64,000 nt of DNA from Cyclobacterium xiamenense (GTDB lineage: Bacteria; Bacteroidota; Bacteroidia; Cytophagales; Cyclobacteriaceae): contig NZ_WIOK01000021.1 in assembly GCF_009467825.1 (NCBI RefSeq), forward strand, positions 1 to 64,000, read 5' to 3'. Below the pieces are notes generated by a model. It worked only from the letters and a program-made list of their open reading frames with translations. It was not told the DNA's origin and did not search any database. Within the stretch, counting starts at the first letter, position 1. Each line of letters starts with the position of its first letter. Below are positions 36,008 through 59,581 of this stretch, one piece after another. The translations under genes and the position numbers were made by a program.

Positions 36008-36015
36008 AGCTGGGT

Positions 36016-39000
36016 CTAATTTTTTCTGGCACGGGTATACATGCCGTCTGGTAAGGATTGCAAATAAAGCATCAAATCACTTAATTCCTGAATATCCATG
36101 GCATTTTCCAAACCGGCCGGCATTAAGGATTGGGAGACAGGGGATAAATTTTCCACGTCTTCTACGAGAACAAACCGCGATACATTGGGGCCCAATGCTA
36201 TTTCGTACCTTCCTGCTTCGAAGGTTTGGATAATCCCCGTCAGGTTTTGACTTCCGGTGCGAAGGGAAACCGTTTCGTACTCCCGTGCAAAACTGGCAGA
36301 GGGGTAAACGATGGCTTCCAGAATATCGTGCCGGGAACGAATTTCTCCAATGTTCGTCAAATCCGGACCAAAAGTACCTCCCTCACCGGCGACCGCGTGA
36401 CAGCTGCTGCAGGTTCCTTTACCATAAAAAACCGCCCTTCCCCTGGAAACATCTCCGGACAGCAAGTCGCTTTCCAGTGATTCCAGGGCAATCAGACGAT
36501 ATTCCTGGGTGCGCTGCACACTGTCCACAATCGCCGATTCGTTTTCGGCAAAAATCGTTTTTACCCTATCAAGAGAGAGCCTGTCCCACTCTTCCTTACG
36601 CTGCAACAAGCTTTGCTCCAATGCATTCAACGGCGCTACCTGCTCCACCCCATGGAATAGCTCCAGCACCACCGGCACATTTTCCGAAGACACCTCCGGG
36701 AAAATATGCTCCAAAATCCAGTCCAGGCGGTTTTGGTCAAGTTCAAGGTCTTTCAAAATCCGGCCAACAAGGGCGTGGTGCTGCCGAACTTCTTTTAGCA
36801 AAAGCTGCTGGGCAATCCAGTGAAATTCGGTGTCTTTAACTTTATCTCCCTGTGCCACCAGCGCCTGATAGGCCATCAGCCGAAGGGAAACGGCGGTTGC
36901 ATCGTTCTGGGAAAGTGCTTTTAATTCTTCGGATAACTTCGTACTGTTGATTTGGGAGATCACGCGCAGGGTTGCCTCCTGGATGGAGCGATCCCCTTCC
37001 TTCAGATACAGGCGGAGGCTAGTGCCTAGTGCAGCCGAAGGGTCTTTGGGTGGAAAGGAAGCAAGTAGAGATAGTAGCCATTCTCCCCGCGGATTGCCCT
37101 GGTTCTCCCTCATCTTTTCAGAAAGGTACGCCTGCACAGGTTCCTGATCGATAAATACGGGCCAAAGATCCCGTATCCTATCCAGGTCCGGAACGGGTTG
37201 GGCAGTTTGTGAGTCCATAAACGAAATAAAGGCCTGGTGCCATTCCGGATGGTTTTTCAGAACCCAGGCCCCAGTTCGCTGCGCGGTGGTATCCGATGCG
37301 ACCAAATAGGAAGCGATTGTTTCTTCTGCCAGCAAGCCGTTGTTTTTTTGATCCAGCGCGATGACTACCGCTTTGTTGAAGCCGGATGCGGCCAATTCCT
37401 CCAGAAGCAAGGACTCGTTTTTCATTTCAATTAGTGCATAAATAACAGCATGTTCGAAGTACCGATCCTCCGGGTACCGTTCTAAGGCCTGTAGAAGCGG
37501 TTGCGTAGCCATGGGATCCTCGATTTGGCCCAGTGCTACGGCCACCTGCCTGGCAAGTGGAAGGGAGCTAGCCTCTGCAAGTACACGAATCAGTTTATCC
37601 CTTGCGGTATTCACTTCTGCCATTCCCAACACCCGGGCGCTAGCGGTCCTTACCAGGTCACTCGGGTCGTCCAGCCCTGCGTGCATCGTATTCCAGGCTC
37701 TCGGGTTTTGGGTACGGAACAAAAGAAACACGGCATTCGCACGGACCGTTTCGTCCGGATGCGCTTGCATCAGGCTTTGTAAAAAGGGGATAGCGAGCAA
37801 CGGTTGATGGAGCAGGTAATTCCCTGCTTTCTCAACCACTGCGGGTCGGGGATCTTCCAGCAGCTTTACCAACTGAGCCACCGACAATTGGGCCCAGGGA
37901 ATGTCGTTTCCCCAGGGATCTGCAACTTCTCCGGAGCGATCTTTTTTTCGAATACGGAAGATCCCTCCCGGCACATCCGGTTTGGCGGTGCGGCTTAACG
38001 GGCAGCCCGAAATAAACCAGCCACCGGTATTGACCAACAGCAAGTTTCCATTGGGCTCCTGCAACACATCGGTCGGATGAAAGTCGGGCAGTCGGCTCTG
38101 AAAAAACGGCTGCGCTTCTACCCGAAAAGAGGCGCCTTCGGGTATCAGTTTGCTTTGGATGATTCTACCGGTATTGAATTCGGCGTGAAACAAATTGCCT
38201 TCAACATCCTCGGCCCAGCCCGATCCGTTATGCCGCATCAATCCGGAGGGAGAAACCCTGGCCATCCGGTGCATGACCGGCATCAATTCGCCCGTGCGGA
38301 CCAGTTGATCCTCTGAAATAACAGGATGGGGTTTGGGATATACCCCATTTTCTACCCAATGCATCAGCGCATCCCGGTATCCCCCCTGCGGATCGGTAAA
38401 ATAGGTCATGGTTCCCAATACTTCCCCGGAAGGCGTAAAAGCCAATTCAATCGCATTGTCGAAACCACCACCAGCAAATGACTGCAACTGGGTACCATTT
38501 GGCAGGCAACGCCATATACGCGCACCCTTCCCCTCAAAATGTACAAATTCCTTACTTAAAATATCAAATCCACGGCGGGCGTCCGCCAGGTATAACCAGC
38601 CGTCGGGCCCCATGAAAGGTCCACTCAGTATGGCCGCATTGTGATTCAATGTCCATCCGGAAAGCAGGACCTCCTCTTCATCCGCCACTCCATCCCCGTC
38701 GGTATCGGTAAACTTCACCAAATTCGGAGCATTGGTAACGATCAAGCTACCGTCCAGAAAAACGCCGCCCATGGGAAATGAAAGCGAATCGGCATAGACG
38801 GTTTTGTGCTCAAACAGCCCATCTTTGTCGTTGTCCGACAAAAGGAGGATGCGGAAGTCCGGATTTTCTTCGATACCAGAAGTGCTTTCCGTTTGTCCGC
38901 TGGATTCCATGACAAAAAGCCTACCCTGATCGTCGAAAACAGCAAACATGGGATAGTCCACCAAGCCAGGCAAGGTGGCTTCTTCAAGTACATAGCCATC

Positions 39001-39132
39001 GGGTAACACCCAGTCCTGCTGCCCACTACTGGAGGGGTCCCCACCGAAAAAACTGGCCCAAACCAAAAAAACCACCAGGGCCAAAACCAGCCAGGGCCAG
39101 GCGGGAATCCATTTTTTCCAGATAGTCCGCAT
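36016..39132 (-). CDS. Membrane-anchored propeller/HEAT/cytochrome c dehydrogenase-like protein
   Basis: A 1038-residue protein of the membrane-bound-dehydrogenase plus heme-binding-domain family common in Planctomycetes, Verrucomicrobia and Bacteroidota. One N-terminal TM helix (about 12-30) anchors it facing the periplasm. Residues 40-400 form a sugar-dehydrogenase-like propeller (LFVMESSG, DTDGDGVADEEE, NGSGWAEDVEGNLFHAEFNTG). Residues about 415-850 are HEAT-like helical repeats. A class I cytochrome c domain covers about 890-1030, with heme motif CSSCH near residue 907 and a likely axial Met near 1002 (SLMPAG). Short gaps (8 bases each side) place it in the DUF1080/PhyH operon. Enzymatic activity has not been shown for this architecture; electron transfer is inferred from the heme site. 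Confidence 0.87.
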   Translation of the reverse strand: MRTIWKKWIPAWPWLVLALVVFLVWASFFGGDPSSSGQQDWVLPDGYVLEEATLPGLVDYPMFAVFDDQGRLFVMESSGQTESTSGIEENPDFRILLLSDNDKDGLFEHKTVYADSLSFPMGGVFLDGSLIVTNAPNLVKFTDTDGDGVADEEEVLLSGWTLNHNAAILSGPFMGPDGWLYLADARRGFDILSKEFVHFEGKGARIWRCLPNGTQLQSFAGGGFDNAIELAFTPSGEVLGTMTYFTDPQGGYRDALMHWVENGVYPKPHPVISEDQLVRTGELMPVMHRMARVSPSGLMRHNGSGWAEDVEGNLFHAEFNTGRIIQSKLIPEGASFRVEAQPFFQSRLPDFHPTDVLQEPNGNLLLVNTGGWFISGCPLSRTAKPDVPGGIFRIRKKDRSGEVADPWGNDIPWAQLSVAQLVKLLEDPRPAVVEKAGNYLLHQPLLAIPFLQSLMQAHPDETVRANAVFLLFRTQNPRAWNTMHAGLDDPSDLVRTASARVLGMAEVNTARDKLIRVLAEASSLPLARQVAVALGQIEDPMATQPLLQALERYPEDRYFEHAVIYALIEMKNESLLLEELAASGFNKAVVIALDQKNNGLLAEETIASYLVASDTTAQRTGAWVLKNHPEWHQAFISFMDSQTAQPVPDLDRIRDLWPVFIDQEPVQAYLSEKMRENQGNPRGEWLLSLLASFPPKDPSAALGTSLRLYLKEGDRSIQEATLRVISQINSTKLSEELKALSQNDATAVSLRLMAYQALVAQGDKVKDTEFHWIAQQLLLKEVRQHHALVGRILKDLELDQNRLDWILEHIFPEVSSENVPVVLELFHGVEQVAPLNALEQSLLQRKEEWDRLSLDRVKTIFAENESAIVDSVQRTQEYRLIALESLESDLLSGDVSRGRAVFYGKGTCSSCHAVAGEGGTFGPDLTNIGEIRSRHDILEAIVYPSASFAREYETVSLRTGSQNLTGIIQTFEAGRYEIALGPNVSRFVLVEDVENLSPVSQSLMPAGLENAMDIQELSDLMLYLQSLPDGMYTRARKN

Positions 39133-39140
39133 CAGCGCTT

Positions 39141-40034: not shown

Positions 40035-40048
40035 GGGTAACGCGTAAA

Positions 40049-40810
40049 TTAGGGATTGGGTAATAAAGGTGCTATTTGATCCGGGGACGTAACGCCGGGA
40101 GGAAGTGGGGTCACCGTCAGGTTGCGAAAATGAATCGGTGCTCCTTCTGACTCCAGGCAGATATATCCTTTCTTCTGGGTTGACTGACGGATGCCGTTGA
40201 CGAATTTTCCATTAACGGAAAGCTTGATCACGCCATCCACGCATACCACCACGTAGGTATTCCATTGGCCTTTTCCCAGGCAACGGTTTTCGATGGATTT
40301 ACTGCGGGTGCCGCGTGGATTGTCGGGAACGGTCTCCACACCACCCACGCCAAAGAGCTCTCCGTGTACGTAGGCAATGGGCGGCAACTCCCCATCCGGA
40401 CGTTTATTTTGGTTGACCCAATCCAATTCCAGCATTTGTACTTCCACTCCATCGGGCAACCGGTTTTCGCCAGGTACTGCACCGGACCAGACAAAGCTGC
40501 CGGAATTTCCACCGGCTTCCATGTGTTTCCACTCCACATACATGACGAAATTTTCGTATTGCTGCTCGGAACGGATCACGCCGATCGGTAAACCTTCGCA
40601 TACCAACTCCTCCCCCTCAAAGCGCCAGGTAGCCGGGCCCGTATTGACATCCCTCCAACGAATGGATTTTTCTTGTGTCGCCTTTCCCTGAATCAATGCA
40701 TTGAGGTCTTGCTCCTTTCCAAATTCAAATAGAAAATCCTGCGCCGGAAGCGTGTATGAAATAAATAAAAGGGCAAATAAAAGTAAGGGGGTTTGTTGTT
40801 TCGTATTCAT
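40049..40810 (-). CDS. Secreted DUF1080 (3-keto-disaccharide hydrolase) protein, copy 2
   Basis: A 253-residue exported protein, with signal peptide about residues 1-23 (cleaved after LPAQ). The DUF1080 jelly-roll follows, with [15 protein letters not shown] and [11 protein letters not shown] matching the family's NSGI and EVQ blocks. It has a variant C-terminus with [15 protein letters not shown]. It lies between PhyH (14 bases) and the Tat-exported oxidoreductase (27 bases) in one operon. Together with that oxidoreductase it could process 3-keto-glycosides in the periplasm. Confidence 0.87.
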
Positions 40811-42324: not shown

Positions 42325-45210
42325 ATGCAAACTAATTCGCCGGCTATCGCCACTTCACTTTCGGATCTGATCGAAGCGCTCAAAGGAGAGGTATTGACAG
42401 ACTCTTTTTCGCTGGGCATGTATGCCACAGATGCCAGTATTTACCAAATTTTTCCATTAGCGGTTGTTCTACCCAAAGACGAAAGCGATGTGAAAAAAGC
42501 CCTGGAATGGGCCAATAGCAATCAGGTCACCATTTTGCCCCGTGGCGGCGGCACCAGCCTCGCCGGCCAGACAGTCGGCAATTCGCTCGTGCTCGATTTT
42601 TCCAAATACATGGACCAGACCCTGGAAATCAACACCGAGGAACGATGGGTACGGGTGCAGCCTGGCAAGGTTCGGGATGTTCTAAACGACGAGTTGGCAC
42701 CTCTTGGGCTCCATTTTGCCGTAGATCCAGCCACCTCCAGCCGGGCAAATGTTGGAGGAATGGTCGGTAATAATTCTTCGGGAACCAAGAGTATTCTCTA
42801 CGGAAAAACGGTGGACCATGTACTGGAAGCAAAAGTACTGCTGGCAGACGGAACCGGTATGCATCTAAAAAATACAGATGCGGAAACCTATAGGCAAATA
42901 GCCCTAAAAGGCAGCCGGGAAGGGGAAATCTACCGACGATTTAAGGAAATCATCGACAAGAACAGCGCCTTGATCGAACAAAAATTTCCAAAAGTCATGC
43001 GGCGGGTTGGAGGCTACAACCTGGACGAATTCATACATACCGAGGATTGGAACCTGGCAAAATTGATCACGGGAAGCGAAGGTACGCTGGCCACCACCCT
43101 GGAACTAAAACTCAACCTCGAACCGCTGCCTTCTTTTAAATCGGTTTGCGTACTCCATTTTGCAGAGTTGTTGGATGCCGTTGGGGCGGTAACGAGCATT
43201 TTGCCGTACCAACCCTCAGCTGTAGAGATCTTGGATAAAATCGTGGTGGACCTAAGTCGCGAAAACCTCACCACCAAGCGGCATTGCCATTTTATCCAGG
43301 GAGATCCAGCTGCCATCCTGATCGTAGAATTTTACGGAGAAACCTTGTCGGACGTAATGGACCGACCCACCCAAATGATCAAGGAGTTGCAGGAAAAGGG
43401 CCTGGGATATGCCTTCCCGTTGTTTCCTCAGGGGCCAGAATACGAAGACGTATGGGTGGTGCGAAAAAAAGGACTCGGCCTGATGCTGGGAATTAAAGGC
43501 AAGAAAAAGCCCCTACCCTTTATAGAGGATGCCGGAATCCCTACGCAGCACCTGCGGGAATACATTGATCGTACCCTACAGATCTGTAAAAAACACCAGA
43601 CGGAAGTAGCCATGTATGCCCACGTAAGCGTGGGGGTTATCCATGTACGACCCATACTGGACCTGCGGGACCAAGCGGATATCGAGCGCCTGGAAGCCAT
43701 CGCGGAGGACACCTTCCAGTTGGTCATGGAGTACGGAGGGTCCTGGAGTGGGGAGCACGGAGACGGCCTCGTTCGAAGCCCGTTTAACGAGCGCTTTTTT
43801 GGCGCGGAACTGTACCAGGCCATGATTCAGGTCAAACGCCTCTTTGACCCGGAAAACCGCATGAACCCTGGGAAGATCGTAGAAGCGGAGCCCATGTCAC
43901 GAAACCTTCGGTATGGGAATCGGTACCAGGATCAGGCGGTAGAGCCTGTCTTTCATTACCGATCCGAGCAGAGCTTTCAGGAATCGGTCCACATGTGCAC
44001 CGGAGTAGGCGAATGCCGCAAATTACTCGGTGGCACCATGTGCCCCAGTTTCAAGGCTACCCGGGACGAAGAGCATACCACGCGTGGTCGGGCCAATGCC
44101 CTGCGAATGGCCATGTCGGGCCAATTGGACGAAAAAGGGCTGCGCAGTGAACGCCTGCAGGAGACCCTGAGTTTGTGTCTGAGTTGCAAGGCCTGCAAAT
44201 CCGAATGCCCCAGCAACGTGGACATGGCCAAAATGAAAAGCGATGTGATGCAATGGTATTACGACGCCAATGGCGCCAGCCTGCGGGACAAAATGATCCG
44301 GGATGCAGCCGGCATGGCCAGGCGCTTTTCCGGCAAACTGGCCAAACCGATCAATTTCCTGCAATCTTCTCGCTTGTTTCGGAAAAGCCTGGAAAAAATC
44401 GCCGGATTCGATAGCCGGCGAACGCTCCCTGCCTATGCCTCGGAATCATTTTCCAACTGGTTTGAGAAAAACGGCGGAAAGCAGAAAAAAACGGGGAAAA
44501 AAGTGGCCCTTTTTGCCGATACTTACCTGAACTACCACGAACCCTCCATTGGCAAGGCAGCGGTAAAATTACTCAACGATTGCGGATACGAAGTCGTGCT
44601 GGCCAACGTGGGCTGCTGCCAGCGACCCAAGATATCCCATGGTTTCTTGAGAGACGCAAAAACAGAAGGAAAACCAACCGTGGAAAAGCTACTCGCATTT
44701 ATCGATCAGGGCCTTCCTGTGCTGGTGTGCGAACCGAGTTGTGCCTCCGCATTGAACGATGACTTTCCGGATTTATTCGATGAAAAAGAAGTAGCTGACA
44801 AACTAACCAAAAACGTACTCATGATTGATGTTTTCCTTGCCAGGGAAATGGAACGGGGAAATCTGAATGTTCGCTTTCGCAGCAAGGGAAAAGGGCTGCA
44901 GATTCACGGTCATTGCCACCAAAAAGCGCTGTATGGGACCCAAGCAATGAAAAAAACCCTGGGAGAACCGGCATCCTGCACCGAAATTCCTTCCGGATGC
45001 TGCGGCATGGCGGGCTCCTTTGGCTACGAGAAAGAACATTACGCCCTGTCTCAAAAAATCGGAGCCGAAGTTTTGTTTCCTGCCATCCAAAACGCCCCGG
45101 AGGGAAGCGAACTAGTCGCTTCCGGCTTTAGCTGCAGGCACCAGATTGATCACTTTACCGGAAAGCAGGCAAAACACTGGGTGGAGTGCGTGGAAGTGAT
45201 TCCCGAATAG
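42325..45210 (+). CDS. FAD-linked oxidase fused to FeS/CCG domains (YdiJ-type D-2-hydroxyacid dehydrogenase), copy 1
   Basis: A 961-residue respiratory-type dehydrogenase, probably peripheral to the inner membrane on the cytoplasmic side. Residues about 45-270 form the FAD-binding PCMH domain (LPRGGGTSLAGQ, GGMVGNNSSGTKS), followed by the FAD-oxidase C domain with the GSWSGEHGDGLVRSP segment. Two cysteine clusters near residues 557 (CTGVGECRK) and 618 (CLSCKACKSECP) bind 4Fe-4S centres. The C-terminal GlcF-like part has HGHCHQKAL and the CCG motif SGCCGMAGSFGYEKEH. Members oxidise D-lactate, D-2-hydroxyglutarate or related acids to quinone. It is divergent from the sugar-oxidation cluster. 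A paralogue is at 56633-59581. Confidence 0.9.
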   Translation: MQTNSPAIATSLSDLIEALKGEVLTDSFSLGMYATDASIYQIFPLAVVLPKDESDVKKALEWANSNQVTILPRGGGTSLAGQTVGNSLVLDFSKYMDQTLEINTEERWVRVQPGKVRDVLNDELAPLGLHFAVDPATSSRANVGGMVGNNSSGTKSILYGKTVDHVLEAKVLLADGTGMHLKNTDAETYRQIALKGSREGEIYRRFKEIIDKNSALIEQKFPKVMRRVGGYNLDEFIHTEDWNLAKLITGSEGTLATTLELKLNLEPLPSFKSVCVLHFAELLDAVGAVTSILPYQPSAVEILDKIVVDLSRENLTTKRHCHFIQGDPAAILIVEFYGETLSDVMDRPTQMIKELQEKGLGYAFPLFPQGPEYEDVWVVRKKGLGLMLGIKGKKKPLPFIEDAGIPTQHLREYIDRTLQICKKHQTEVAMYAHVSVGVIHVRPILDLRDQADIERLEAIAEDTFQLVMEYGGSWSGEHGDGLVRSPFNERFFGAELYQAMIQVKRLFDPENRMNPGKIVEAEPMSRNLRYGNRYQDQAVEPVFHYRSEQSFQESVHMCTGVGECRKLLGGTMCPSFKATRDEEHTTRGRANALRMAMSGQLDEKGLRSERLQETLSLCLSCKACKSECPSNVDMAKMKSDVMQWYYDANGASLRDKMIRDAAGMARRFSGKLAKPINFLQSSRLFRKSLEKIAGFDSRRTLPAYASESFSNWFEKNGGKQKKTGKKVALFADTYLNYHEPSIGKAAVKLLNDCGYEVVLANVGCCQRPKISHGFLRDAKTEGKPTVEKLLAFIDQGLPVLVCEPSCASALNDDFPDLFDEKEVADKLTKNVLMIDVFLAREMERGNLNVRFRSKGKGLQIHGHCHQKALYGTQAMKKTLGEPASCTEIPSGCCGMAGSFGYEKEHYALSQKIGAEVLFPAIQNAPEGSELVASGFSCRHQIDHFTGKQAKHWVECVEVIPE

Positions 45211-49976: not shown

Positions 49977-50852
49977 TTATCCATAGCGTTGCAGAAAATC
50001 TTTCTTGTAGCTCATCGGGGTCATCTTCATCTTTTCCTTAAATTGTTTGTTGAAATTGGACAGCGTATGAAAGCCACATTCGTAGCTGATCTCACTGATA
50101 TTGATGTTTTCCCGCTGCAGCAATTTGCAGGCATGCCCGATACGAACCTCCGACAAAAAGTCGGAAAAGGACTTGTTCATTCGGGATTTAAAATACCTGG
50201 AAAACGAACTGCTACTCATATTGATTAGCCCAGCTACCTCTTCCAGTTTTACCGGGCGTTGAAAATGATCCATGACAAAAGCATATACGGTACTCATTCG
50301 GTCCTTTTCTGATTCTTTGTTGGTGTTCATGTATCCTGCCCGTACGATAGGCTGCACCTCAGTAGAGCGGGCTATGCGTAGCAAAATCTCCAACAGCCCA
50401 ATAATCCGGTCCAATCCGTCCTTTTGTACCAGAGAAGCAAGCAAGGGTCTGAGTTCCTCATTGGTCGCTCCTAAAATTTCCAGGCCCATGCCCGCTTTTT
50501 CGAGGAGTACACGTAATTCTCCAAATTCTTCCTTCTGCATCAGTTCCTTCCCAATAAAATTTTCCGGAAAGTAAACGACGATTCCTTCGGTCAGCAGGTC
50601 GCTTCCTTTCTCAAAATATTCCTGGTCATTCCGCCAGAGATGCGGCAGGTTTGGACCGGTAAACACCAGATCGTTTTCTTTAAAAACCCGCATGTCATCT
50701 CCGACAAAGCGTGTACCTCGCCCCTGTCTGACCCAAAATAACTGGTATTCCGGATGAAAGTGCCAGTTTTTGTCAAAATTGGCTGCTACCAGCTCCCTGA
50801 CCACAAAGGCGTTTTGTTCCGGAATGCGGGATTTTTGAAACGGCTTTTTCAA
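49977..50852 (-). CDS. AraC-family transcriptional regulator with cupin sensor domain
   Basis: A 291-residue DNA-binding regulator. The N-terminal cupin domain (about residues 20-130) has the HFHPEYQLFW metal/sugar-binding motif, GTRFVGDD and PHLWRND. Two C-terminal helix-turn-helix motifs follow (VKLEEVAGLINMSSSSFSRYFK and ISEISYECGFHTLSNFNKQFK). It is divergently transcribed from the ThuA/cupredoxin operon with a 155-base shared region that holds two direct repeats (50903-50938), the probable operator. The downstream lyase gene is likely in the same transcript. The inducer is unknown but is probably a sugar or an oxidised sugar. Confidence 0.92.
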   Translation of the reverse strand: MKKPFQKSRIPEQNAFVVRELVAANFDKNWHFHPEYQLFWVRQGRGTRFVGDDMRVFKENDLVFTGPNLPHLWRNDQEYFEKGSDLLTEGIVVYFPENFIGKELMQKEEFGELRVLLEKAGMGLEILGATNEELRPLLASLVQKDGLDRIIGLLEILLRIARSTEVQPIVRAGYMNTNKESEKDRMSTVYAFVMDHFQRPVKLEEVAGLINMSSSSFSRYFKSRMNKSFSDFLSEVRIGHACKLLQRENINISEISYECGFHTLSNFNKQFKEKMKMTPMSYKKDFLQRYG

Positions 50853-50938: not shown

Positions 50939-51007
50939 ATACACTTATAAATTCCCCATATTCGTACTGTGAAAATACCAAACAATAGCACCCAAACACG
51001 AATTACC

Positions 51008-54000
51008 ATGAAACATTGTGGGTTAATCGCCATTGCCATCCTTTTCTGGATGGGCTGCGGTAACAAATCAACGGAAATTAGCCTTTCCGATGGCCCGAGA
51101 CGGGCAGAGATCCTTTTCCTTGGGCACGAAAGCACCCATCACAATTCCGAAAAGTTAATGCCGATGCTCGCCAGGCATTTGTTTCAAAAGGGCATCAACC
51201 TGACCTACACGGCCGATCCCGAAGACCTCAACGCAGAAAATCTCCGCCTGTACGATGGGCTGATGATCTACGCCAATCACGACGAAATCACCGCCGATCA
51301 GGAAAAAGCGTTAAAAAACTATGTGGAAGGCGGCAAGGCCCTCATTCCTATTCACAGCGCTTCCTTTTGTTTCCGGAATTCGGATTGGTTTGTCGAAACC
51401 GTTGGGGGACAGTTTTCGTCCCACGGTACCGGGGACTTTACCGCTACGATTGTCGATGGCACGCACCCGATAATGGAGGGAATCGAAGAATTTGAAACGT
51501 GGGACGAAACGTATGTTCATGCCCAACTGAACGAAGACATGACCGTGCTTATGGAGCGTGTGGATGGAGAGCACCGGGAACCGTACACCTGGGTACGTGA
51601 ACAGGGAAAGGGAAGGATATTCTACACTGCCTATGGCCACGACGAACGTACCTGGAGCCAGCCGCAATTTCAGGAGTTGGTGGCAAATGGGGTCCTATGG
51701 GCTATCGGCGATAACGTTGCGGCCCAGGTTGCGGCCTACGACATTCCGCAACCCGTGTTTGAAGATGCGGAAATTCCAAACTACGAAAACAGAGACCCTG
51801 CCCCCCGCTACCAGCTACCCCTATCCCCCGAGGAATCCATGAAGTTGGTACAGGTTCCGGTGGGCTTTGAATTGCAACTATTCGCTTCCGAGCCGGATAT
51901 CATCAATCCCATGGCCATGTGCTGGGATGAAAAGGGCCGGCTGTATGTGATTGAAACCACCGACTACCCCAACGAGGTTCGAAAAGAGGGTGGCAACGAC
52001 AAAATCAAAATGCTGGAAGATACGGACGGAGACGGCAAAGCCGATAAGGTTACCATTTTTGCCGATGGGTTAAACATTCCAACCAGCCTTGTCGCGGTAA
52101 ATGGTGGTATTTTGATTTCCATGGCACCCGATTTCGTCTTTTTAAAAGATACAGACGGGGACGGCAAAGCGGATGTAAAAGAAACCCTGATCACTGGCTG
52201 GGGCAAAAGCGACACCCATGCGGGCCCATCCAATCTCCGGTATGGATTTGATAATAAATTATGGGGTGTATTGGGCTATTCCGGATTCCGCGGAGAAATT
52301 GATGGCACTTCCTTTTCCTTTGGACAGGGTGTGTACCGTTTTGACCCTGATGGTACCGATTTTGAGTTTCTTGGAAATACCAGCAACAATACCTGGGGGT
52401 TGGGCTTCAGTGAGGAATTCAACGTGTTTATCTCCACCGCAAACGGGCAACACAGTGCCTACCTGGCCATGCCGCGCGAATACGTACGCAGACCGGTTCA
52501 CGGGGGTTCTGTCAACGCCGTCCATGGTATCGACAGTCATTACGACATGCCCCACCTAACGCCCTTTCTACGACAGGTGGATTGGCACGGTGGGTACACG
52601 GCCGCTGCAGGCCATCATTTGTATACCGCGCGAAACTTCCCCAAATCCTATTGGAACCGAGTGGCCTTTGTAGCGGAACCTACCGGAAGGGTGCTCCACA
52701 ATGCCATCATTGAAAAAGAGGGTTCCGGATTTCGGGAAAAAAACGGCTTTAATATATTGGCTAGTTCGGACGAATGGTTTTCACCGGTCCATGCAGAAGT
52801 GGGGCCGGATGGCGCCCTTTGGATTGCCGATTGGTACAATTTTATCATTCAGCATAATCCCACACCCAAGGGATTTGAAAATGGAGAAGGGAATGCCTAC
52901 ATCAATCCGCTGCGTGACGCCAAACACGGGAGAATCTACCGGATGGTGTACAAGGGCTCGGATTCGTACGAGGTGATGAACATCGATTCCGACCGGAATG
53001 CGGACCTGATAGCCGGACTGAAAAGTAATAACATGTTCTGGCGCATGACGGCCCAGCGCCTAATCGTTGAAAACCAGAAAACGGATTTGATACCAGAACT
53101 TTTGAAACTGGTCGACGATCCTTCCGTTGACGAAATCGGTCTGAATAGTCCGGCGGTGCATGCCCTGTGGGCACTGCATGGGATTGGTGCGCTGGATGGC
53201 TCCAACCAATCGGTAAACGAGGTAGTAGCCAGGGCTTTGAAACACCCGGCAGCTGGCGTCCGAAAAAACGCCTTACAGGTATTACCGCGCAATTCGGCTA
53301 GTTTGGAAGCGGTACTCGCCACCGATGTACTGAAGGACCCGGATTTGAACACCCGTAAAACCGCATTTTTGGCCCTGGCCGATATGCCCAGTTCAGAAAC
53401 GGCTTCAAACCTACTGCTGACCTCGGCTGACGCGGCCGACAATGGAGCGGACCCTTACCTGCCACAGGCGATTTTCGCCTCGGTGCTTTCGCACCCGCAG
53501 TCCTTTGAAAATCTTTCGGCAAGCTTGCTGGACCCCAACAAGCCGGATTCCCTGCTTTCCCTGAGCGAGCGGGTGTCCAAAAGCCTGGTGTCGGAACAAT
53601 ACAGCCTGGACCGACGGGCAGGCATCCCCTACCCTCCGGAAGTTGTGGGAAAAGAGCTACACCTGCAAGCGACGCTTAGTAAAGCAGATGAACCCCTGGA
53701 AGGAATTATCGTGGCTCAGGGAAACAGCACCAATGGTTACAGCCTGTATATTCAAAACAACCGCATAAATTGGCTGGTCCGCCAAGATGGGAAAAGCTAT
53801 CAGGCAAGTAGCGGGACCGGTCTCCCCGCTCAACAATTCGTGCTCAACGCCAGCCTCCTGCAGGATGGAGCGATGGTCCTGAGCATCGATGACCGTCAAG
53901 TGGGCACGGCAAAGGCAGCCGGACTATTCGATCAGGAACTGGAACCAAATCGTGTTCGTATCGGCCATGATAACATGGGCTCCGATCAGGTAGGTACCTA

Positions 54001-54508
54001 TCCGGACCGCTTTTATTTCCGGGGAAGGATGAACAGCCGGGCATCTCATCTAAACCTAAAAATTCCTGCCGAAAAGACAGGTACAAGCGGGTCGATGGCT
54101 TCTTCAGAAAGCTCAACCCAGGGATCCGCAGGTGCGGTGACCATAAAAATGGGAGTAATCCAGCACGAAATGAAATTTGATAAGCCCAGTTTTACCGTGA
54201 AGGCCGGACAGCAGGTGACCATTGATTTCACCAACGACGACTTCATGCAACACAACCTGCTGGTTGGAAAGGCAGGCAGCCTGGAGACCATCGGAAAAGC
54301 AGCCGACGAACTGGCGCGCGATCCCAATGGCGTTACGATGAATTTTGTTCCCAAAATTCCGGAAGTACTCGCTTCCACCCCTTTGGTAAACCCGGAAACC
54401 AGCGAAAGTCTGGTATTCACGGCTCCCAATGAACCCGGTGAATATCCGTATCTCTGTACGGTTCCTGGACACTGGCGAATCATGAATGGCATCATGATCG
54501 TAGAATAA
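51008..54508 (+). CDS. ThuA / propeller / HEAT / LamG-like / cupredoxin fusion lipoprotein
   Basis: A 1166-residue exported protein with five domains. The lipoprotein signal ends in FWMGCG near residue 17, and I prefer the ATG at 51008 to an upstream GTG at 50969. Residues about 30-230 are a ThuA domain (LFLGHESTHHN, IHSASFCFRN). The sugar-dehydrogenase-like propeller covers about 278-650, with DTDGDGKADK calcium-type segments and NAVHGIDSHYDMPHL. HEAT-like repeats follow (660-865), then a jelly-roll like the DUF1080/LamG fold (880-1017). The end is a plastocyanin/azurin domain with all four type-1 copper ligands: His1082 (MQHNLL), Cys1150 (LCTVPG), His1155 and Met1159. It replaces the cytochrome c of the related protein at 36016. 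ThuA is linked to 3-keto-disaccharide use in rhizobia. An epimerase gene follows after 24 bases. Confidence 0.88.
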   Translation: MKHCGLIAIAILFWMGCGNKSTEISLSDGPRRAEILFLGHESTHHNSEKLMPMLARHLFQKGINLTYTADPEDLNAENLRLYDGLMIYANHDEITADQEKALKNYVEGGKALIPIHSASFCFRNSDWFVETVGGQFSSHGTGDFTATIVDGTHPIMEGIEEFETWDETYVHAQLNEDMTVLMERVDGEHREPYTWVREQGKGRIFYTAYGHDERTWSQPQFQELVANGVLWAIGDNVAAQVAAYDIPQPVFEDAEIPNYENRDPAPRYQLPLSPEESMKLVQVPVGFELQLFASEPDIINPMAMCWDEKGRLYVIETTDYPNEVRKEGGNDKIKMLEDTDGDGKADKVTIFADGLNIPTSLVAVNGGILISMAPDFVFLKDTDGDGKADVKETLITGWGKSDTHAGPSNLRYGFDNKLWGVLGYSGFRGEIDGTSFSFGQGVYRFDPDGTDFEFLGNTSNNTWGLGFSEEFNVFISTANGQHSAYLAMPREYVRRPVHGGSVNAVHGIDSHYDMPHLTPFLRQVDWHGGYTAAAGHHLYTARNFPKSYWNRVAFVAEPTGRVLHNAIIEKEGSGFREKNGFNILASSDEWFSPVHAEVGPDGALWIADWYNFIIQHNPTPKGFENGEGNAYINPLRDAKHGRIYRMVYKGSDSYEVMNIDSDRNADLIAGLKSNNMFWRMTAQRLIVENQKTDLIPELLKLVDDPSVDEIGLNSPAVHALWALHGIGALDGSNQSVNEVVARALKHPAAGVRKNALQVLPRNSASLEAVLATDVLKDPDLNTRKTAFLALADMPSSETASNLLLTSADAADNGADPYLPQAIFASVLSHPQSFENLSASLLDPNKPDSLLSLSERVSKSLVSEQYSLDRRAGIPYPPEVVGKELHLQATLSKADEPLEGIIVAQGNSTNGYSLYIQNNRINWLVRQDGKSYQASSGTGLPAQQFVLNASLLQDGAMVLSIDDRQVGTAKAAGLFDQELEPNRVRIGHDNMGSDQVGTYPDRFYFRGRMNSRASHLNLKIPAEKTGTSGSMASSESSTQGSAGAVTIKMGVIQHEMKFDKPSFTVKAGQQVTIDFTNDDFMQHNLLVGKAGSLETIGKAADELARDPNGVTMNFVPKIPEVLASTPLVNPETSESLVFTAPNEPGEYPYLCTVPGHWRIMNGIMIVE

Positions 54509-54532: not shown

Positions 54533-55393
54533 ATGGCGTTAGATATTAAACTGGGAGTCAGTACCTGGCTGTGGACGTCTCCGTTCCAGACAGAGACGAT
54601 CTCCCTTTTTCCAAAAATCAAACAAATGGGCTACGATGCGGTGGAGATTCCCGTGGAAGACCCTTCAGTAATCGATGGCAAAACGGTAAAGCAGGCACTG
54701 GAAGACAACGGATTGCATCCCATTGTATGCGGCGCCTTTGGCCCAAGCAGAGATTTGACCCACGAGGATCCTTCCTACCACCAAACGAGTCTGGATTACA
54801 TCCAACAATGCCTGGATTTGAGCGTGGAAGTAGGTGCCGAATTTGTTGCAGGACCCATGTATTCCTCCGTTGGAAAGGCCCGCTTGGTCTCTCCCGAACA
54901 AAAAAAGGTGGAATGGGACAGGGCGGTATCCAATCTCTACAAGGTGTGCGTGATGGCAGAAAAAGCCGGTCAGAAAATAGCATTGGAGGCCCTTAACCGG
55001 TTTGAAACCGATTTGATCAATACCACGGAAGAACTCATGCGGCTGATTGGCGACATCAACCACCCGGCTGCACGGGTGCTGCTGGACGGTTTTCACATGA
55101 ACATCGAGGAGCCAAATATCGAAAAGGCCATTTTGCAGGCTGGCGATAAGCTGCTTCACGTGCAAGTATCGGAGAACTACCGGGGAACCCCCGGCACCGG
55201 TCAAACCCGCTGGGAAGATTACAAACGAGGACTGGAGAAAGTAAACTACAAGGGGACCATTACGATCGAAAGTTTTACTCCGGAGATCAAAGAATTAGCC
55301 GGCGCGGTTTGCATCTGGAAGCCGCTGGCAAGCAGCCAGGATGCCTTTGCCTCTGATGGATTCCGTTTCCTGAGGGAATGGGCCAGCTCCTAA
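54533..55393 (+). CDS. Sugar phosphate isomerase/epimerase-like TIM barrel (D-psicose/tagatose 3-epimerase-like)
   Basis: A cytoplasmic 286-residue TIM-barrel enzyme. Metal ligands of the ketose 3-epimerase group are visible: Glu in LEALNRFE, Asp in LLDGFHMNIEE, His in LLHVQVSENYRGTPGTG and the final Glu in TIESFTP. LGVSTWLWT opens the barrel. Known relatives interconvert ketohexoses at C3. In 3-keto-sugar pathways related barrels catalyse epimerisation or beta-elimination, so the role here may be on a 3-keto intermediate. It lies 24 bases after the ThuA-fusion gene and 36 bases before a Gfo/Idh/MocA gene in one operon. No signal peptide was seen. Confidence 0.88.
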   Translation: MALDIKLGVSTWLWTSPFQTETISLFPKIKQMGYDAVEIPVEDPSVIDGKTVKQALEDNGLHPIVCGAFGPSRDLTHEDPSYHQTSLDYIQQCLDLSVEVGAEFVAGPMYSSVGKARLVSPEQKKVEWDRAVSNLYKVCVMAEKAGQKIALEALNRFETDLINTTEELMRLIGDINHPAARVLLDGFHMNIEEPNIEKAILQAGDKLLHVQVSENYRGTPGTGQTRWEDYKRGLEKVNYKGTITIESFTPEIKELAGAVCIWKPLASSQDAFASDGFRFLREWASS

Positions 55394-55429: not shown

Positions 55430-56545
55430 ATGACCCATAAAAAACTCAATATCGCCATCATCGGGCTTGGATTTGGCGCAGAATTTATCCCCATCTACCG
55501 GAAACACCCCGGGGCCAATATGTATGCCATCTGTCAGCGAAACGAAGCAAAACTCAACGAAATCGGCGATGCATTCGGTATCGAAAAACGGTATACCGAT
55601 TACGATGAATTGCTAAAGGATCCGGACATTGATGCCGTCCATATCAACACGCCCATTCAGGCACACGCCGAGCAATCCCTCAAAGCATTGCGGGCCGGAA
55701 AGCACGTAGCCTGCACCGTGCCCATGGCTACCACAGTCGAAGAATGTCGGCAAATTGTAGAGGAAACGGAGAAATCCGGCCTGACCTACATGATGATGGA
55801 GACGGTTATCTATAGCCGGGAATTTCTTTTTGTCAAGGAAATGTACGAAAAAGGCGAAATGGGCAAGTTGCAATTTCTTCGTGCCAGTCATCAGCAGGAA
55901 ATGGCCGGGTGGCCTGGGTACTGGGAAGGCTTACCCCCCATGCATTACGCCACGCACTGCGTAGGTCCCGTTTTGGCGCTGGCTAAAGGGCAAGCAGAAT
56001 ACGTATCCTGCTTTGGTTCGGGTAGAATTGACGAAAACCTAATCGAAAAATACGGCTCGCCCTTCGCCATCGAAACCTGCCATATCAAACTGAAAGATTC
56101 CGATCTGTCCGCTGAGGTTACCCGCTCACTGTTCAACACAGCCCGGCAATACCGGGAAAGCTTTGACGCGTACGGTTCGGAGAAATCCTTCGAATGGACG
56201 CTGATTGAACACGAGGATCCCGTCGTTCATACCGGTGAAAAGCCAGAACGAGTGAAAGTACCGGACTATGCCCACTTACTACCGGAAGAAATTTCCTCCT
56301 TCACGACCGCGGGCGTATACGACTCGGACGATAACCAACACCTATCCTTTATTCAAGGTGCAGGGCATGGTGGTTCGCACCCGCATTTGGTTCACGAATT
56401 TGTCACCGCATTGCAGGAAGGACGGGCGCCTTATCCCGATGCCCGCCAATCGGCAAACATCACGTGCGTGGGGATTTTGGCGCACGAATCCGCCATGAAA
56501 GGCGGCGCCATCATCCCGCTCCCTGCATTTACGCTCAACAGTTAG
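55430..56545 (+). CDS. Cytoplasmic Gfo/Idh/MocA oxidoreductase, ThuB-like context
   Basis: A 371-residue NAD(P)-dependent oxidoreductase without a signal peptide. The Rossmann motif IAIIGLGFGAEFIP is at about 8-21. The segment AGKHVACTVPMATT stands where relatives have the EKP motif, so the usual catalytic-region lysine is replaced (Thr-Val-Pro). In ThuAB systems the Gfo/Idh partner oxidises disaccharides to 3-keto forms; the ThuA-domain gene two positions upstream makes this a reasonable guess. It is the last gene before the terminator at 56582-56612. Confidence 0.87.
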   Translation: MTHKKLNIAIIGLGFGAEFIPIYRKHPGANMYAICQRNEAKLNEIGDAFGIEKRYTDYDELLKDPDIDAVHINTPIQAHAEQSLKALRAGKHVACTVPMATTVEECRQIVEETEKSGLTYMMMETVIYSREFLFVKEMYEKGEMGKLQFLRASHQQEMAGWPGYWEGLPPMHYATHCVGPVLALAKGQAEYVSCFGSGRIDENLIEKYGSPFAIETCHIKLKDSDLSAEVTRSLFNTARQYRESFDAYGSEKSFEWTLIEHEDPVVHTGEKPERVKVPDYAHLLPEEISSFTTAGVYDSDDNQHLSFIQGAGHGGSHPHLVHEFVTALQEGRAPYPDARQSANITCVGILAHESAMKGGAIIPLPAFTLNS

Positions 56546-56581: not shown

Positions 56582-56612
56582 AACCCGGAATACTTGAATT
56601 CCGGGTTTTTTT
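56582..56612 (+). terminator. Rho-independent terminator of the ThuA-fusion operon
   Basis: A perfect 10-bp stem AACCCGGAAT/ATTCCGGGTT (56582-56591 and 56598-56607) with a 6-base loop, followed by seven T that begin inside the stem end. It lies 36 bases after the Gfo/Idh/MocA stop and 20 bases before the converging FAD/FeS gene. Confidence 0.88.
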
Positions 56613-56632: not shown

Positions 56633-59581
56633 CTACAAGCCGGCCGCTGCGTATAAAATCTCAACAGGGTGCCGTGCTTTTTTGCCCGTACCATCGGAAA
56701 TCTGATGCCGGCAACTTGTACCGGGCGCAGCGATCAATGCGTCTGCTTCCGCAGCGCGGACAGCAGGAAACAATACCATCTCGCCAATCTGCATGCTCAG
56801 CGAGTAATGCTCTTTTTCATAGCCAAAAGATCCTGCCATCCCACAACAACCGGAAGGAATCACCTGAACCCGGTAGTTTTCAGGTAGTTCAAGCAGCTTC
56901 TTGGTATAATTCACCGAAGAAAGGGCCTTTTGATGGCAATGCCCGTGCAGGTGGACGATTTTGGCTTCCGAGGTAAAGGCATCGGGACCGATATTTCCAG
57001 CAATAATTTCTTTCGCTAAAAACTCATCGATCATTTCGCAATGAAATTTAAGCGATTTGGCTTTTTCCCGAAGGCTTTTGTTCACCAGACGAGGGTATTC
57101 GTCCCTAAAGCTCAGAATGGCCGATGGTTCCAAACCAATCAAGGGGCTGTCTGCATTTACCAGGTCAGCGAACAAGGCAACGTTTGCTTCGGCCATTTTT
57201 TGTGCATAATCCAACAGGCCTTTGGAGATGGCCCCTCTCCCACTTTCCGCATGATCTACCATCTTCACCTCATAGCCCAGGTGGCGCAATAACGTGATGG
57301 CTTTGATGCCGATCTCGGTGTCGTTGTGATTGGTAAATTCGTCGAAGAAAAAATACAGCGATTTGATGATGGGTCTGCCTGAAAGCGTTCGGTACTCCTT
57401 TTTGTACCAACTTTTAAGGGACTGCTTGCTGATTGTCGGTAAGGTTCGTTGCGGGGCTACGCCCAAAAACTTTTTCAATCCACCTCCAAATGCAGCGTTT
57501 GTAAGAAAAAAATTCGATATACCCGGAACCATACTTCCCAGACCGTTTAGTTTGTTGATATACGCAAATGCCCTGGACCGTAACGGCACCCCATTGGTCT
57601 TTTGGTATTGGTACTGAAATTCTGCTTTCATCGTGGACATGTCCACGTTGGAGGGGCATTCGGAGGTACAGCCTTTGCAGGAAAGGCAAAGATCCATCAC
57701 CTCTTTGATTTCCGGATGATCGAAAGGATTTTCCTTTCGGCTATTGGTCAGAAATTCCCGCAAGGTATTGGCCCGTCCGCGGGTGGTATCTTTTTCGTAG
57801 CGGGTGGCCTGATAACTGGGACACATGGTACCTCCACCGGAATTTGGCAGTTTGCGGCAATCCCCCGATCCATTGCATTTTTCGGCCATGCGCAAAATGC
57901 CTCCTACATTGCTAAAGTCAAATTTTGTCGGAAACTCCGGGGTTACCATTTCCGGTTCGTAGCGAAGGGAAGTATTCATCGGCGGTGCATCCACAATCTT
58001 TCCAGGGTTGAATATTCCGTTGGGGTCCCAGGTAGCTTTCAATCGCTTAAATAGATCGTAGTTTTCCTGACCGACCATCATGGGAATAAAGGCAGCCCTC
58101 ACCCGGCCGTCACCGTGTTCCCCGCTCAGGGATCCCTTGTATTTTTTTACCAGCTTGGCACTGGCTTCGCTAATCCGGTAAAATTCCTCCACATCCCTGG
58201 CCTTTTTCAGATCCAGGATGGGGCGCAAGTGGATTTCGCCGGCGCCAGCGTGGGCATAATAAACCGGTTCCTGCCCAAATTCCTTGATTATTTCGGCGAA
58301 CTCGTCAATATAGTCTGCCAGATCTTCTATCGCCACAGCGGTATCTTCGATGCAGGCTACGGCTTTTTTGTCACCGGGAATGTTGGCAAGCAGCCCCAAG
58401 CCCGCACTGCGCAACTGCCAGGCACTGTTGGTCCGATCCGGGCCAATGACGGGAAAAGAATAGCCTAAACCGGCGTTTTTTAAGGCGTCCACAAAAACCA
58501 ATCCTTGTGTTTTGGCCTCTTCGATGGTTTTTCCCCGAAATTCCACCATGAGAATGGCTTTGGGGTCTCCCTCGACAAAATCCCGGTTTCGACTTTGTTC
58601 GACATTTTCCTTGGTACAGTCCAGGATGATTTTATCCATCAACTCTACTGCGGTGGGTGCATGCTTCATGGCCACCTGCGCTGCCTTCATGCTGTCGTGG
58701 ATGCTATCAAAATGCGCTGCCACTACGATATCAAAGGGATCAGGTAGTGGATCCAGGTGGATTTTTATCTCCGTGGTGATGGCCAGTGTACCCTCCGACC
58801 CGCAAAGCAATTTACAAAAATCGAATGGATTTTGGGATTCCGAAAACAGCTGGGATTCCAGCAAATAATCAAGGGCATATCCCGTATTTCGGCGGTGTAT
58901 GGCCGCCTTGGGGAAATGCTCCCGAATGTTTTGTTGTACTTCCGGCTTGCTAAGCTCTTCCCGTATGTGGCGGTAGAGTGCTCCTTCCAGGTTATCTTGC
59001 TTGCATTTTAATTCGAAATCCGCAGGGCTCATGGATTTAAAAACCGCCTCCGTCCCATCGCTCAACAGGACCTTAAGTTCGAGCACGTGTTCCCGGGTAC
59101 TTCCGTAGACGATGGAGGTGGTTCCGCAACTGTTATTCCCCACCATTCCACCGATCATGGCCCGGGTAGCCGTACTGGTAATGGGACTAAAAAAATACCC
59201 GTGTTCTTTGAGGTAGTTGTTCAATTCATTACGGACGACTCCAGGTTGTACACGAACCCATCCCTCCTGCTTGTTAAACTCGACGGTTTTATTCATGTAT
59301 TTGGAGACGTCCACCACAATGCCCTCACCCACGCATTGACCAGCCAGAGAGGTACCGGCGGTACGCGGAATCAGGGAGGTACCGTTTTCTGTCGCAAAAC
59401 GGATCAGTTTTTTCAGATCACTGCATGTTTTTGGCAAAGCTACTGCCAGCGGCAAGGATCGGTAGACCGAGGCATCCGTGGCATACAAGGTTTTCATCAA
59501 GCTGTCAAAATGCAGTTCCCCATCCAGCTCCTTGCCCAATTGGCGCAGAAGCGGGGCAAATTCCGTTGTCGTTTTACTCAT
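56633..59581 (-). CDS. FAD-linked oxidase fused to FeS/CCG domains (YdiJ-type), copy 2
   Basis: A 982-residue paralogue of the protein at 42325-45210 with the same order: PCMH FAD domain (PRTAGTSLAGQ, GGMVGNNSCGTTS), FAD-oxidase C domain (GSLSGEHGDGRVRA), a 4Fe-4S domain (CNGSGDCRK; CLSCKGCTSECPSNVDM), and a GlcF-like end with HGHCHQKAL and SGCCGMAGSFGYEKEH. The two copies probably use different D-2-hydroxyacids. It converges on the ThuA-fusion operon terminator. An exact -7 element (TATTTTTG, plus 59586-59593) lies only 5 bases before its ATG, which would leave almost no leader. A later in-frame Met at residue 29 is too far in to be the true start, because the conserved N-terminal segment precedes it. 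Confidence 0.9.
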   Translation of the reverse strand: MSKTTTEFAPLLRQLGKELDGELHFDSLMKTLYATDASVYRSLPLAVALPKTCSDLKKLIRFATENGTSLIPRTAGTSLAGQCVGEGIVVDVSKYMNKTVEFNKQEGWVRVQPGVVRNELNNYLKEHGYFFSPITSTATRAMIGGMVGNNSCGTTSIVYGSTREHVLELKVLLSDGTEAVFKSMSPADFELKCKQDNLEGALYRHIREELSKPEVQQNIREHFPKAAIHRRNTGYALDYLLESQLFSESQNPFDFCKLLCGSEGTLAITTEIKIHLDPLPDPFDIVVAAHFDSIHDSMKAAQVAMKHAPTAVELMDKIILDCTKENVEQSRNRDFVEGDPKAILMVEFRGKTIEEAKTQGLVFVDALKNAGLGYSFPVIGPDRTNSAWQLRSAGLGLLANIPGDKKAVACIEDTAVAIEDLADYIDEFAEIIKEFGQEPVYYAHAGAGEIHLRPILDLKKARDVEEFYRISEASAKLVKKYKGSLSGEHGDGRVRAAFIPMMVGQENYDLFKRLKATWDPNGIFNPGKIVDAPPMNTSLRYEPEMVTPEFPTKFDFSNVGGILRMAEKCNGSGDCRKLPNSGGGTMCPSYQATRYEKDTTRGRANTLREFLTNSRKENPFDHPEIKEVMDLCLSCKGCTSECPSNVDMSTMKAEFQYQYQKTNGVPLRSRAFAYINKLNGLGSMVPGISNFFLTNAAFGGGLKKFLGVAPQRTLPTISKQSLKSWYKKEYRTLSGRPIIKSLYFFFDEFTNHNDTEIGIKAITLLRHLGYEVKMVDHAESGRGAISKGLLDYAQKMAEANVALFADLVNADSPLIGLEPSAILSFRDEYPRLVNKSLREKAKSLKFHCEMIDEFLAKEIIAGNIGPDAFTSEAKIVHLHGHCHQKALSSVNYTKKLLELPENYRVQVIPSGCCGMAGSFGYEKEHYSLSMQIGEMVLFPAVRAAEADALIAAPGTSCRHQISDGTGKKARHPVEILYAAAGL

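Follow-up and report, generated by a model that had tools for sequence, protein, structure and literature searches.

A ThuA-propeller-cupredoxin fusion protein of Cyclobacterium xiamenense as a possible respiratory glycoside dehydrogenase with a tethered copper carrier

We analysed the gene at 51008-54508 on the forward strand of a 64,000-nucleotide stretch of the Cyclobacterium xiamenense genome (contig NZ_WIOK01000021.1; hereafter the window), which encodes a fusion protein of 1166 amino acids made of a ThuA domain, a DUF7133/TIGR02604 beta-propeller, a helical solenoid, a jelly roll and an auracyanin-type cupredoxin. We give about an even chance (probability near 0.5) to the reading that this protein is a respiratory glycoside dehydrogenase, probably acting at C3, with a copper electron carrier tethered to it; the chemistry, the ring position and the electron route are what we infer from the evidence laid out below. 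Across relatives the redox tail most likely moved between enzyme bodies, so that copper and heme carriers would be exchangeable.

Results

Domain architecture and copper site

The open frame spans 50969-54508, and translation from the ATG at 51008 gives a lipoprotein-like N-terminus, consistent with an envelope-anchored protein with a predicted lipid anchor. An earlier note on this DNA had claimed five domains, and these were borne out: ThuA, DUF7133 and Copper-bind in Pfam, with a HEAT_2 match below threshold (residues 739-809, 24.3 bits, short of the cut-off of 27.7) and a jelly roll that had no Pfam match and was recognized from the AlphaFold model and Foldseek. The checks proposed there, profile searches for ThuA, TIGR02604 and cupredoxin together with a structure prediction, found the domains, the cupredoxin profile scoring above its cut-off. 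The AlphaFold model of the whole protein, built on 38 homologues, reached a predicted local distance difference test score of 86.6 and a predicted template modelling score of 0.81, and it showed an alpha/beta fold for ThuA, a propeller part rich in strands, helices at about 664-861, a strand-rich part at about 862-1020, a low-confidence linker at 1023-1041 and a strand-rich C-terminal domain at 1044-1166. Foldseek matched ThuA-like proteins, several propellers, laminin-G/CBM40 sandwiches and auracyanin A. Its rows naming large chains such as clostridial neurotoxins and laccases were set aside for a whole-chain root mean square deviation (rmsd) above 20, as were shorter large-chain rows (rmsd about 8), which we took to trace the jelly roll only. 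The gene and its parts are as follows; conservation counts refer to the 38 aligned homologues, which had been picked for a fused cupredoxin.

51008..54508, + strand: five-domain fusion gene, 1166 amino acids (Pfam, NCBIfam, AlphaFold)
51008..51058, + strand: predicted signal peptide with lipobox-like cysteine, Cys17 (from the sequence; Cys17 in 34/38)
51125..51703, + strand: ThuA domain, residues 40-232 (Pfam PF06283, E = 2.1e-41, 142.9 bits versus a cut-off of 33.4; same placement in the own-genome search; Foldseek 4jqs/4pxy)
51824..52954, + strand: DUF7133/TIGR02604 dehydrogenase-like beta-propeller, residues 273-649 (Pfam DUF7133, E = 1.5e-120, 403.5 bits versus 27; NCBIfam TIGR02604 at 286-650, 250.9 bits, about double its cut-off of 122.2; Asp402 and His404 invariant, 38/38)
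52997..53590, + strand: helical HEAT-type solenoid, residues ~664-861 (HEAT_2 under its cut-off; model helices)
53591..54067, + strand: laminin-G-like/CBM40-like jelly roll, residues ~862-1020 (model, Foldseek; Laminin_G_3, below cut-off, in homologue L088)
54134..54505, + strand: auracyanin-type cupredoxin domain, residues 1043-1166 (Pfam Copper-bind at 1045-1166, E = 5.1e-9, 36.9 bits versus 21.2; phmmer match to auracyanin A, E = 1.6e-20; Foldseek 2aan)
54251..54253, + strand: predicted copper ligand His1082 (38/38; 75/77 cupredoxin open reading frames (ORFs) at named loci)
54455..54457, + strand: predicted copper ligand Cys1150 (38/38; 76/77)
54470..54472, + strand: predicted copper ligand His1155 (38/38; 76/77)
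54482..54484, + strand: predicted axial copper ligand Met1159 (38/38; 76/77)

The named loci are the best 80 of at least 577 relatives found by a scan of genome contigs, and each is labelled with an L number. All four ligands proposed in the earlier note lie at the residues given for them, in the spacing C-x4-H-x3-M, and the complete set is present in 75/77 cupredoxin ORFs at named loci, the other two being fragments of a single broken gene (L168). In Foldseek the modelled domain superposed on auracyanin A (2aan) with a template modelling score of 0.89 by target length, an rmsd of 1.6 and 38% identity, while the azurin equivalog TIGR02695 reached 31.4 bits versus a cut-off of 105.1; judged by sequence, the tail is azurin-like, not azurin. 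A chance cupredoxin match was rejected on the combined grounds of Pfam, phmmer, Foldseek and ligand conservation. The domain is thus predicted to have a type-1 copper fold with a His-Cys-His-Met set, and would be expected to hold copper.

A heme-based family name and the own-genome census

The fusion passes the cut-off of TIGR02604, a family with the NCBI name "PVC-type heme-binding CxxCH protein", but its chain contains no CxxCH and no TIGR02603 match up to E = 1 in NCBIfam. All three copper forms scanned (the window protein, L217 and L213) passed this cut-off, so the automatic family name also takes in proteins without the heme motif. Like the proteins for which the name was made (TIGR02604 plus TIGR02603; DUF7133), the fusion combines the propeller family, above cut-off, with a HEAT solenoid and a C-terminal one-electron carrier; unlike them, it starts with ThuA and has a jelly roll ahead of the carrier, which is a cupredoxin.

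The C. xiamenense genome gave 25 DUF7133 matches, of which two were second pieces of an ORF and three fell below the Pfam cut-off, leaving 20 ORFs. Seventeen carry CxxCH in the C-terminal half (well before the end in L063 and L062). The other three are the window fusion with its cupredoxin and two ORFs of 713 and 796 amino acids with neither carrier there, the latter having a CxxCH at residue 248. The cupredoxin model matched three proteins of this genome: the window fusion, a 716-amino-acid weakly DUF7133-like protein with a similar tail, and a free protein of 174 amino acids. The 716-amino-acid protein (L073 1785-3935, C24) is a second fusion with an auracyanin-type tail, and by eye its neighbours are an ORF that looks to be of 3-keto-disaccharide-hydrolase type and two sulfatase-like ORFs. 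Also in this genome, an 1147-amino-acid protein (L233 4140-7583, C73) has ThuA, one CxxCH and a match far below cut-off to glucose/sorbosone PQQ (pyrroloquinoline quinone) dehydrogenases, and is perhaps a second way to join ThuA, propeller and redox unit.

Fused, split and shuffled relatives

The nearest of the 80 named loci are those of Cyclobacterium plantarum and C. lianum (83%). All are labelled Bacteroidota except two Gemmatimonadetes bins (L172, L182), Paraglaciecola algarum (L178) and L137, a metagenome-assembled genome (MAG) whose label, Williamsia, is unconfirmed. Free carriers included, the cupredoxin model matched 73 of 148 genomes of the same family and 58 of 198 genomes sampled from the phylum.

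Body and cupredoxin share one ORF at 70 of the named loci, and at three (L147, L151, L181) the cupredoxin has an ORF to itself. Among the other seven, four bodies run off the contig, two loci (L148, L168) lack an intact ORF for the body, and one (L158) has no cupredoxin. Since the family and named sets overlap (L092 is L181, and L096 is L151), the splits fall at four distinct places, these two plus L097 and L147, and in all four cases no more than about 120 bases separate the cupredoxin ORF from the stop codon of a body. In L147 (18-11010, a Sphingobacteriaceae MAG) a single free-standing cupredoxin ORF comes after a tandem array of three ThuA-DUF7133 bodies, and L158, in the same MAG, has a body with no cupredoxin nearby; one carrier may therefore serve several bodies. 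At L168 (6968-10485, Maribacter litopenaei, from a record titled complete genome) and L148 (Ferruginibacter MAG) the bodies are split into several ORFs, through decay or sequence errors.

The other parts are also shuffled. A GH2-N-like domain (below cut-off) takes the place of the jelly roll in L091 and L095, and L216 had no jelly-roll match. The order propeller-cupredoxin-ThuA, with ThuA C-terminal, was found in L217 (5789-9130) by Pfam and in L290, L293, L294 and L295 by custom models. A GDSL-like front joins a cupredoxin tail in L100, L213, L214, L215, L219, L291 and L297, ThuA being the next gene in L297 (47.5 bits versus 33.4), and L220 is a GDSL-like-DUF7133-cupredoxin chain with ThuA behind it in one polypeptide. 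The same kind of front is found with a cytochrome c tail in the own-genome C9 and C24 proteins and in L238-L241. Because the GDSL match in these heme forms (25.8-32.3 bits) is under the Pfam cut-off of 32.9, the case for a front homologous to that of the copper forms is built on this weak match, the layout and the tree. A link of ThuA to copper forms only was rejected, because a ThuA-like ORF is found close to some heme forms as well (L252, L240, L054, L057, L243). Proteins of 368-386 amino acids with the cupredoxin in front were seen at L225 (4262-5407), L226 (4683-5843) and L228 (4496-5602), the remainder of the L226 protein being weakly DUF6797-like (below cut-off).

Exchange of copper and heme tails

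Of 166 propeller ORFs, 82 rows remained after removal of those above 80% identity, and a quick tree of these showed three changes between copper and heme. Three changes were again found in a careful tree of 61 rows, from which no-carrier rows, split rows and L148 had been dropped, in which ThuA rows had been thinned and some others added, and in which the tree program flagged long branches among the heme rows. A single clade of all 27 copper rows was rejected on the propeller tree (approximately unbiased test, p-AU = 5e-5). A set of 25 chosen rows, namely the GDSL-like group (defined after a first tree had been inspected), the heme rows closest to it and an outgroup of two, gave weak preference to two copper groups (p-AU = 0.034) in the presence of long branches. 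Pairwise identities conflict: between the window fusion and the GDSL form L213 the cupredoxins share 51% identity and the propellers 36%, whereas between the window fusion and L217 the figures are 42% for the cupredoxins and 54% for the propellers. The propeller of L213 shares 48-49% identity with those of the heme forms L069 and L241. Because of this conflict and the rejection of one copper clade, the redox tail most likely moved between bodies, as judged from these comparisons. The trees are unrooted and give neither a direction of the swap nor an ancestral state (heme or copper) for the ThuA clade.

The modular redox swap suggested in the earlier note thus finds its support in GDSL-like-DUF7133 bodies that carry either cytochrome c or cupredoxin. 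For the ThuA family a swap would follow from the wider tree, since no ThuA-DUF7133 body with CxxCH was seen at the 80 named loci and no fused ThuA among the heme forms listed. The paralogue from which the idea had come is the following:

36016..39132, - strand: DUF7133-HEAT-cytochrome c paralogue without ThuA (Pfam, NCBIfam)

It does carry a C-terminal cytochrome c (TIGR02603, 86.8 bits versus 68.15) after DUF7133 and HEAT, but it has no ThuA match in Pfam, barely passes TIGR02604 (122.8 versus 122.2 bits) and matches the fusion propeller only over 60-186 (E = 2.6e-20). We rejected this distant paralogue as a direct swap partner, and alone it is no evidence for a swap; the proper comparison is within the GDSL-like-DUF7133 group. 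It belongs to a cluster at 35183-40810 with two 3-keto-disaccharide-hydrolase-domain proteins and a PhyH protein.

A conserved gene unit

The genes around the fusion, and the hairpin that follows them, are:

49977..50852, - strand: divergent AraC-family regulator with cupin domain, upstream of the fusion
54533..55393, + strand: xylose-isomerase-like TIM barrel, ketose 3-epimerase-like, a conserved neighbour
55430..56545, + strand: Gfo/Idh/MocA oxidoreductase, a conserved neighbour
56582..56607, + strand: terminator-like hairpin of 10 pairs plus T run, 3' of the fusion-TIM-Gfo unit

Gaps of 24 bases separate the fusion from the TIM-barrel gene and 36 bases the latter from the Gfo gene; terminator-like sites in the region number nine, with no excess over the shuffled mean of 9.0. 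This arrangement recurs within the family. With loci truncated by contig ends scored as misses, TIM and Gfo relatives are both present at 64/80 named loci (62/68 among loci of at least 12 kb) and an AraC relative at 47/80. The TIM protein is nearest to D-tagatose/D-psicose 3-epimerases, with the 3-keto-D-glucoside 4-epimerase 6wn6 more distant (1.6e-19). The top PDB match of the Gfo protein is DgpA, its matches to models of levoglucosan dehydrogenase and of the glycoside 3-dehydrogenases BT_2158/BT_2159 were far below cut-offs, and its identity is 86.7-92.7% in the ten nearest relatives (L078-L087) and 48-93% over the named loci. A dehydrogenase-like protein, a TIM enzyme and a Gfo protein in one conserved unit are laid out as in a keto-glycoside pathway. 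The tie of ThuA to 3-keto-sugar metabolism drawn in the earlier note fits these partners and is a link that we infer. Elsewhere in the window are two FAD/Fe-S dehydrogenases (42325-45210 and 56633-59581) that resemble the D-2-hydroxyglutarate dehydrogenase YdiJ far below cut-off, and a 2700-amino-acid ORF on the minus strand (1336-9438).

Discussion

We propose that a ring hydroxyl of a glycoside or sugar, most likely the one at C3, would be oxidized in the DUF7133 propeller, and that the electrons would pass to the protein's own tethered auracyanin-type copper domain and on to the membrane respiratory chain, probably to an enzyme of the cytochrome-oxidase type. The copper domain would replace the function of the cytochrome c domain carried by most DUF7133 proteins of the same genome. 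In the division of labour that we envisage, the in-chain ThuA would process the keto product, and the TIM-barrel and Gfo enzymes, presumably cytoplasmic, would rearrange and reduce it. The retention of a one-electron carrier in cis or in trans, with the copper partner found both fused and split, suggests that the body passes electrons singly to a high-potential carrier, which makes this function directly testable; the presence of a redox domain at 73/80 loci argues for steady electron flow.

A 2024 Nature paper reportedly describes a 3-keto glycan pathway. The fusion's ThuA shares fold and Pfam family with ThuA (trehalose utilisation) and the Bacteroidales ThuA-like structures 4jqs, 4pxy and 4e5v, which are of single-domain size, whereas in the fusion the ThuA domain heads a larger polypeptide. 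The cupredoxin has the fold and ligand set of auracyanin A and Roseiflexus auracyanin (36-38% identity), but auracyanin is a free carrier and the window domain is the tail of a dehydrogenase-like protein. Roseiflexus auracyanin is reported to take electrons from alternative complex III to the photosynthetic reaction centre (PMC8552683). In the C. xiamenense genome an operon encodes alternative complex III (ActD and NrfD, identified by Pfam, with multiheme and Fe-S subunits), and COX2 and COX1, also identified by Pfam, come after it. Together these points make a copper tail feeding an oxidase plausible. The gene unit resembles the A. tumefaciens GlycDH-OGE-HYD-Gfo operon, for which the cited work describes or proposes steps of oxidation, elimination, hydration and reduction (PMC10628242). 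The likeness is one of operon logic, a dehydrogenase with TIM-barrel enzyme(s) and Gfo; two isomerase-like enzymes are reported there, while the window unit has one TIM protein and the fused ThuA. This logic and the retained carrier are why we favour a respiratory glycoside dehydrogenase. None of the titles and abstract openings listed from the open-licence literature describes a ThuA-DUF7133-cupredoxin fusion.

Several observations speak against a respiratory glycoside dehydrogenase. As modelled, the fold alone is no proof of a dehydrogenase, because in Foldseek the luciferin-regenerating enzyme 5d9b (3.4e-7) scores slightly better than the glucose dehydrogenase 7cdy (4.1e-7) and virginiamycin B lyase matches too. 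The TIM barrel resembles 3-epimerases, so that an eliminase role for it would be putative, and the L158 body has no cupredoxin at all at its locus. The gene pqqC was not found in the C. xiamenense genome by a search that was silent in control genomes as well, which also tells to some degree against the unlikely alternative in which the propeller works as a PQQ-dependent sugar dehydrogenase of the soluble glucose dehydrogenase (sGDH)/AA12 type, converting C1 to a lactone with the cupredoxin as acceptor. That alternative draws on the Foldseek likeness to 7cdy, to the PQQ pyranose dehydrogenase 6jt5 (1.9e-6) and to the AA12 protein 6i1t (1.1e-5), although the similarity is low (11-12% identity). 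The D-x-H of Asp402 and His404 is kept throughout, and the DTHAGPSN motif aligns weakly (profile match, probability 70%, E = 3.9e-5) with the SHAV histidine of an own-genome 459-amino-acid protein whose best solved relative is 6jt5. Within this weak alignment to PQQ dehydrogenases, however, Asn460 (38/38) occupies the position that we take to be Arg228 of sGDH, and the neighbours encode TIM-barrel and Gfo proteins, not lactone enzymes.

We also think it improbable that the protein is in effect a glycosidase, in which propeller and ThuA cut the bond through a transient or stored oxidation and the redox domain resets the cofactor occasionally. Lac161_ORF7, which like the fusion joins TIGR02604, HEAT and a redox domain, is reported as a beta-galactosidase that frees glucose from lactose with a kcat of 13.2 per s and a Km of 1.8 mM, that is, as a hydrolase, and this counts against a dehydrogenase too; the accessible parts of the report mention no added electron acceptor in the lactose assay and, unlike in the fusion, name a cytochrome c and neither ThuA nor jelly roll among its domains (PMC5342196). 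A 3-keto-disaccharide-hydrolase domain is fused to one own-genome paralogue, and two such proteins adjoin another. Against this stand the facts that the activity comes from a single report on a heme protein from another phylum, and that the redox domain is so widely kept, four of the seven loci without it in cis or in trans being cut by contig ends. Cupredoxin folds are also found in non-redox roles, and the domain could in principle be a copper store, sensor or structural module that exchanges no electrons with the propeller. We regard this as very improbable, given the full azurin-type ligand set (38/38 and 75/77), its position in the place of the cytochrome c of related bodies and a nearest solved protein, auracyanin A, that is an electron carrier.

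A bolder version of the respiratory dehydrogenase, possible though doubtful, would make this single polypeptide an oxidative glycosidase plugged into respiration: a glycan would be held by the jelly roll and oxidized by the propeller, ThuA would cleave or rearrange the product, and the copper or heme tail would wire the whole to an oxidase, with redox tail, ThuA and sugar-binding part shuffled as a kit across Bacteroidota. If so, breakage of glycosidic bonds would feed respiration directly.

DUF7133/TIGR02604 proteins are numerous, with 20 ORFs in this genome, and one biochemical report on them was found in the open-licence literature (PMC5342196). Copper and heme carriers appear interchangeable on one kind of enzyme body, as parts of one kit, and such exchangeable units suggest how these bacteria may link sugar oxidation to respiration.

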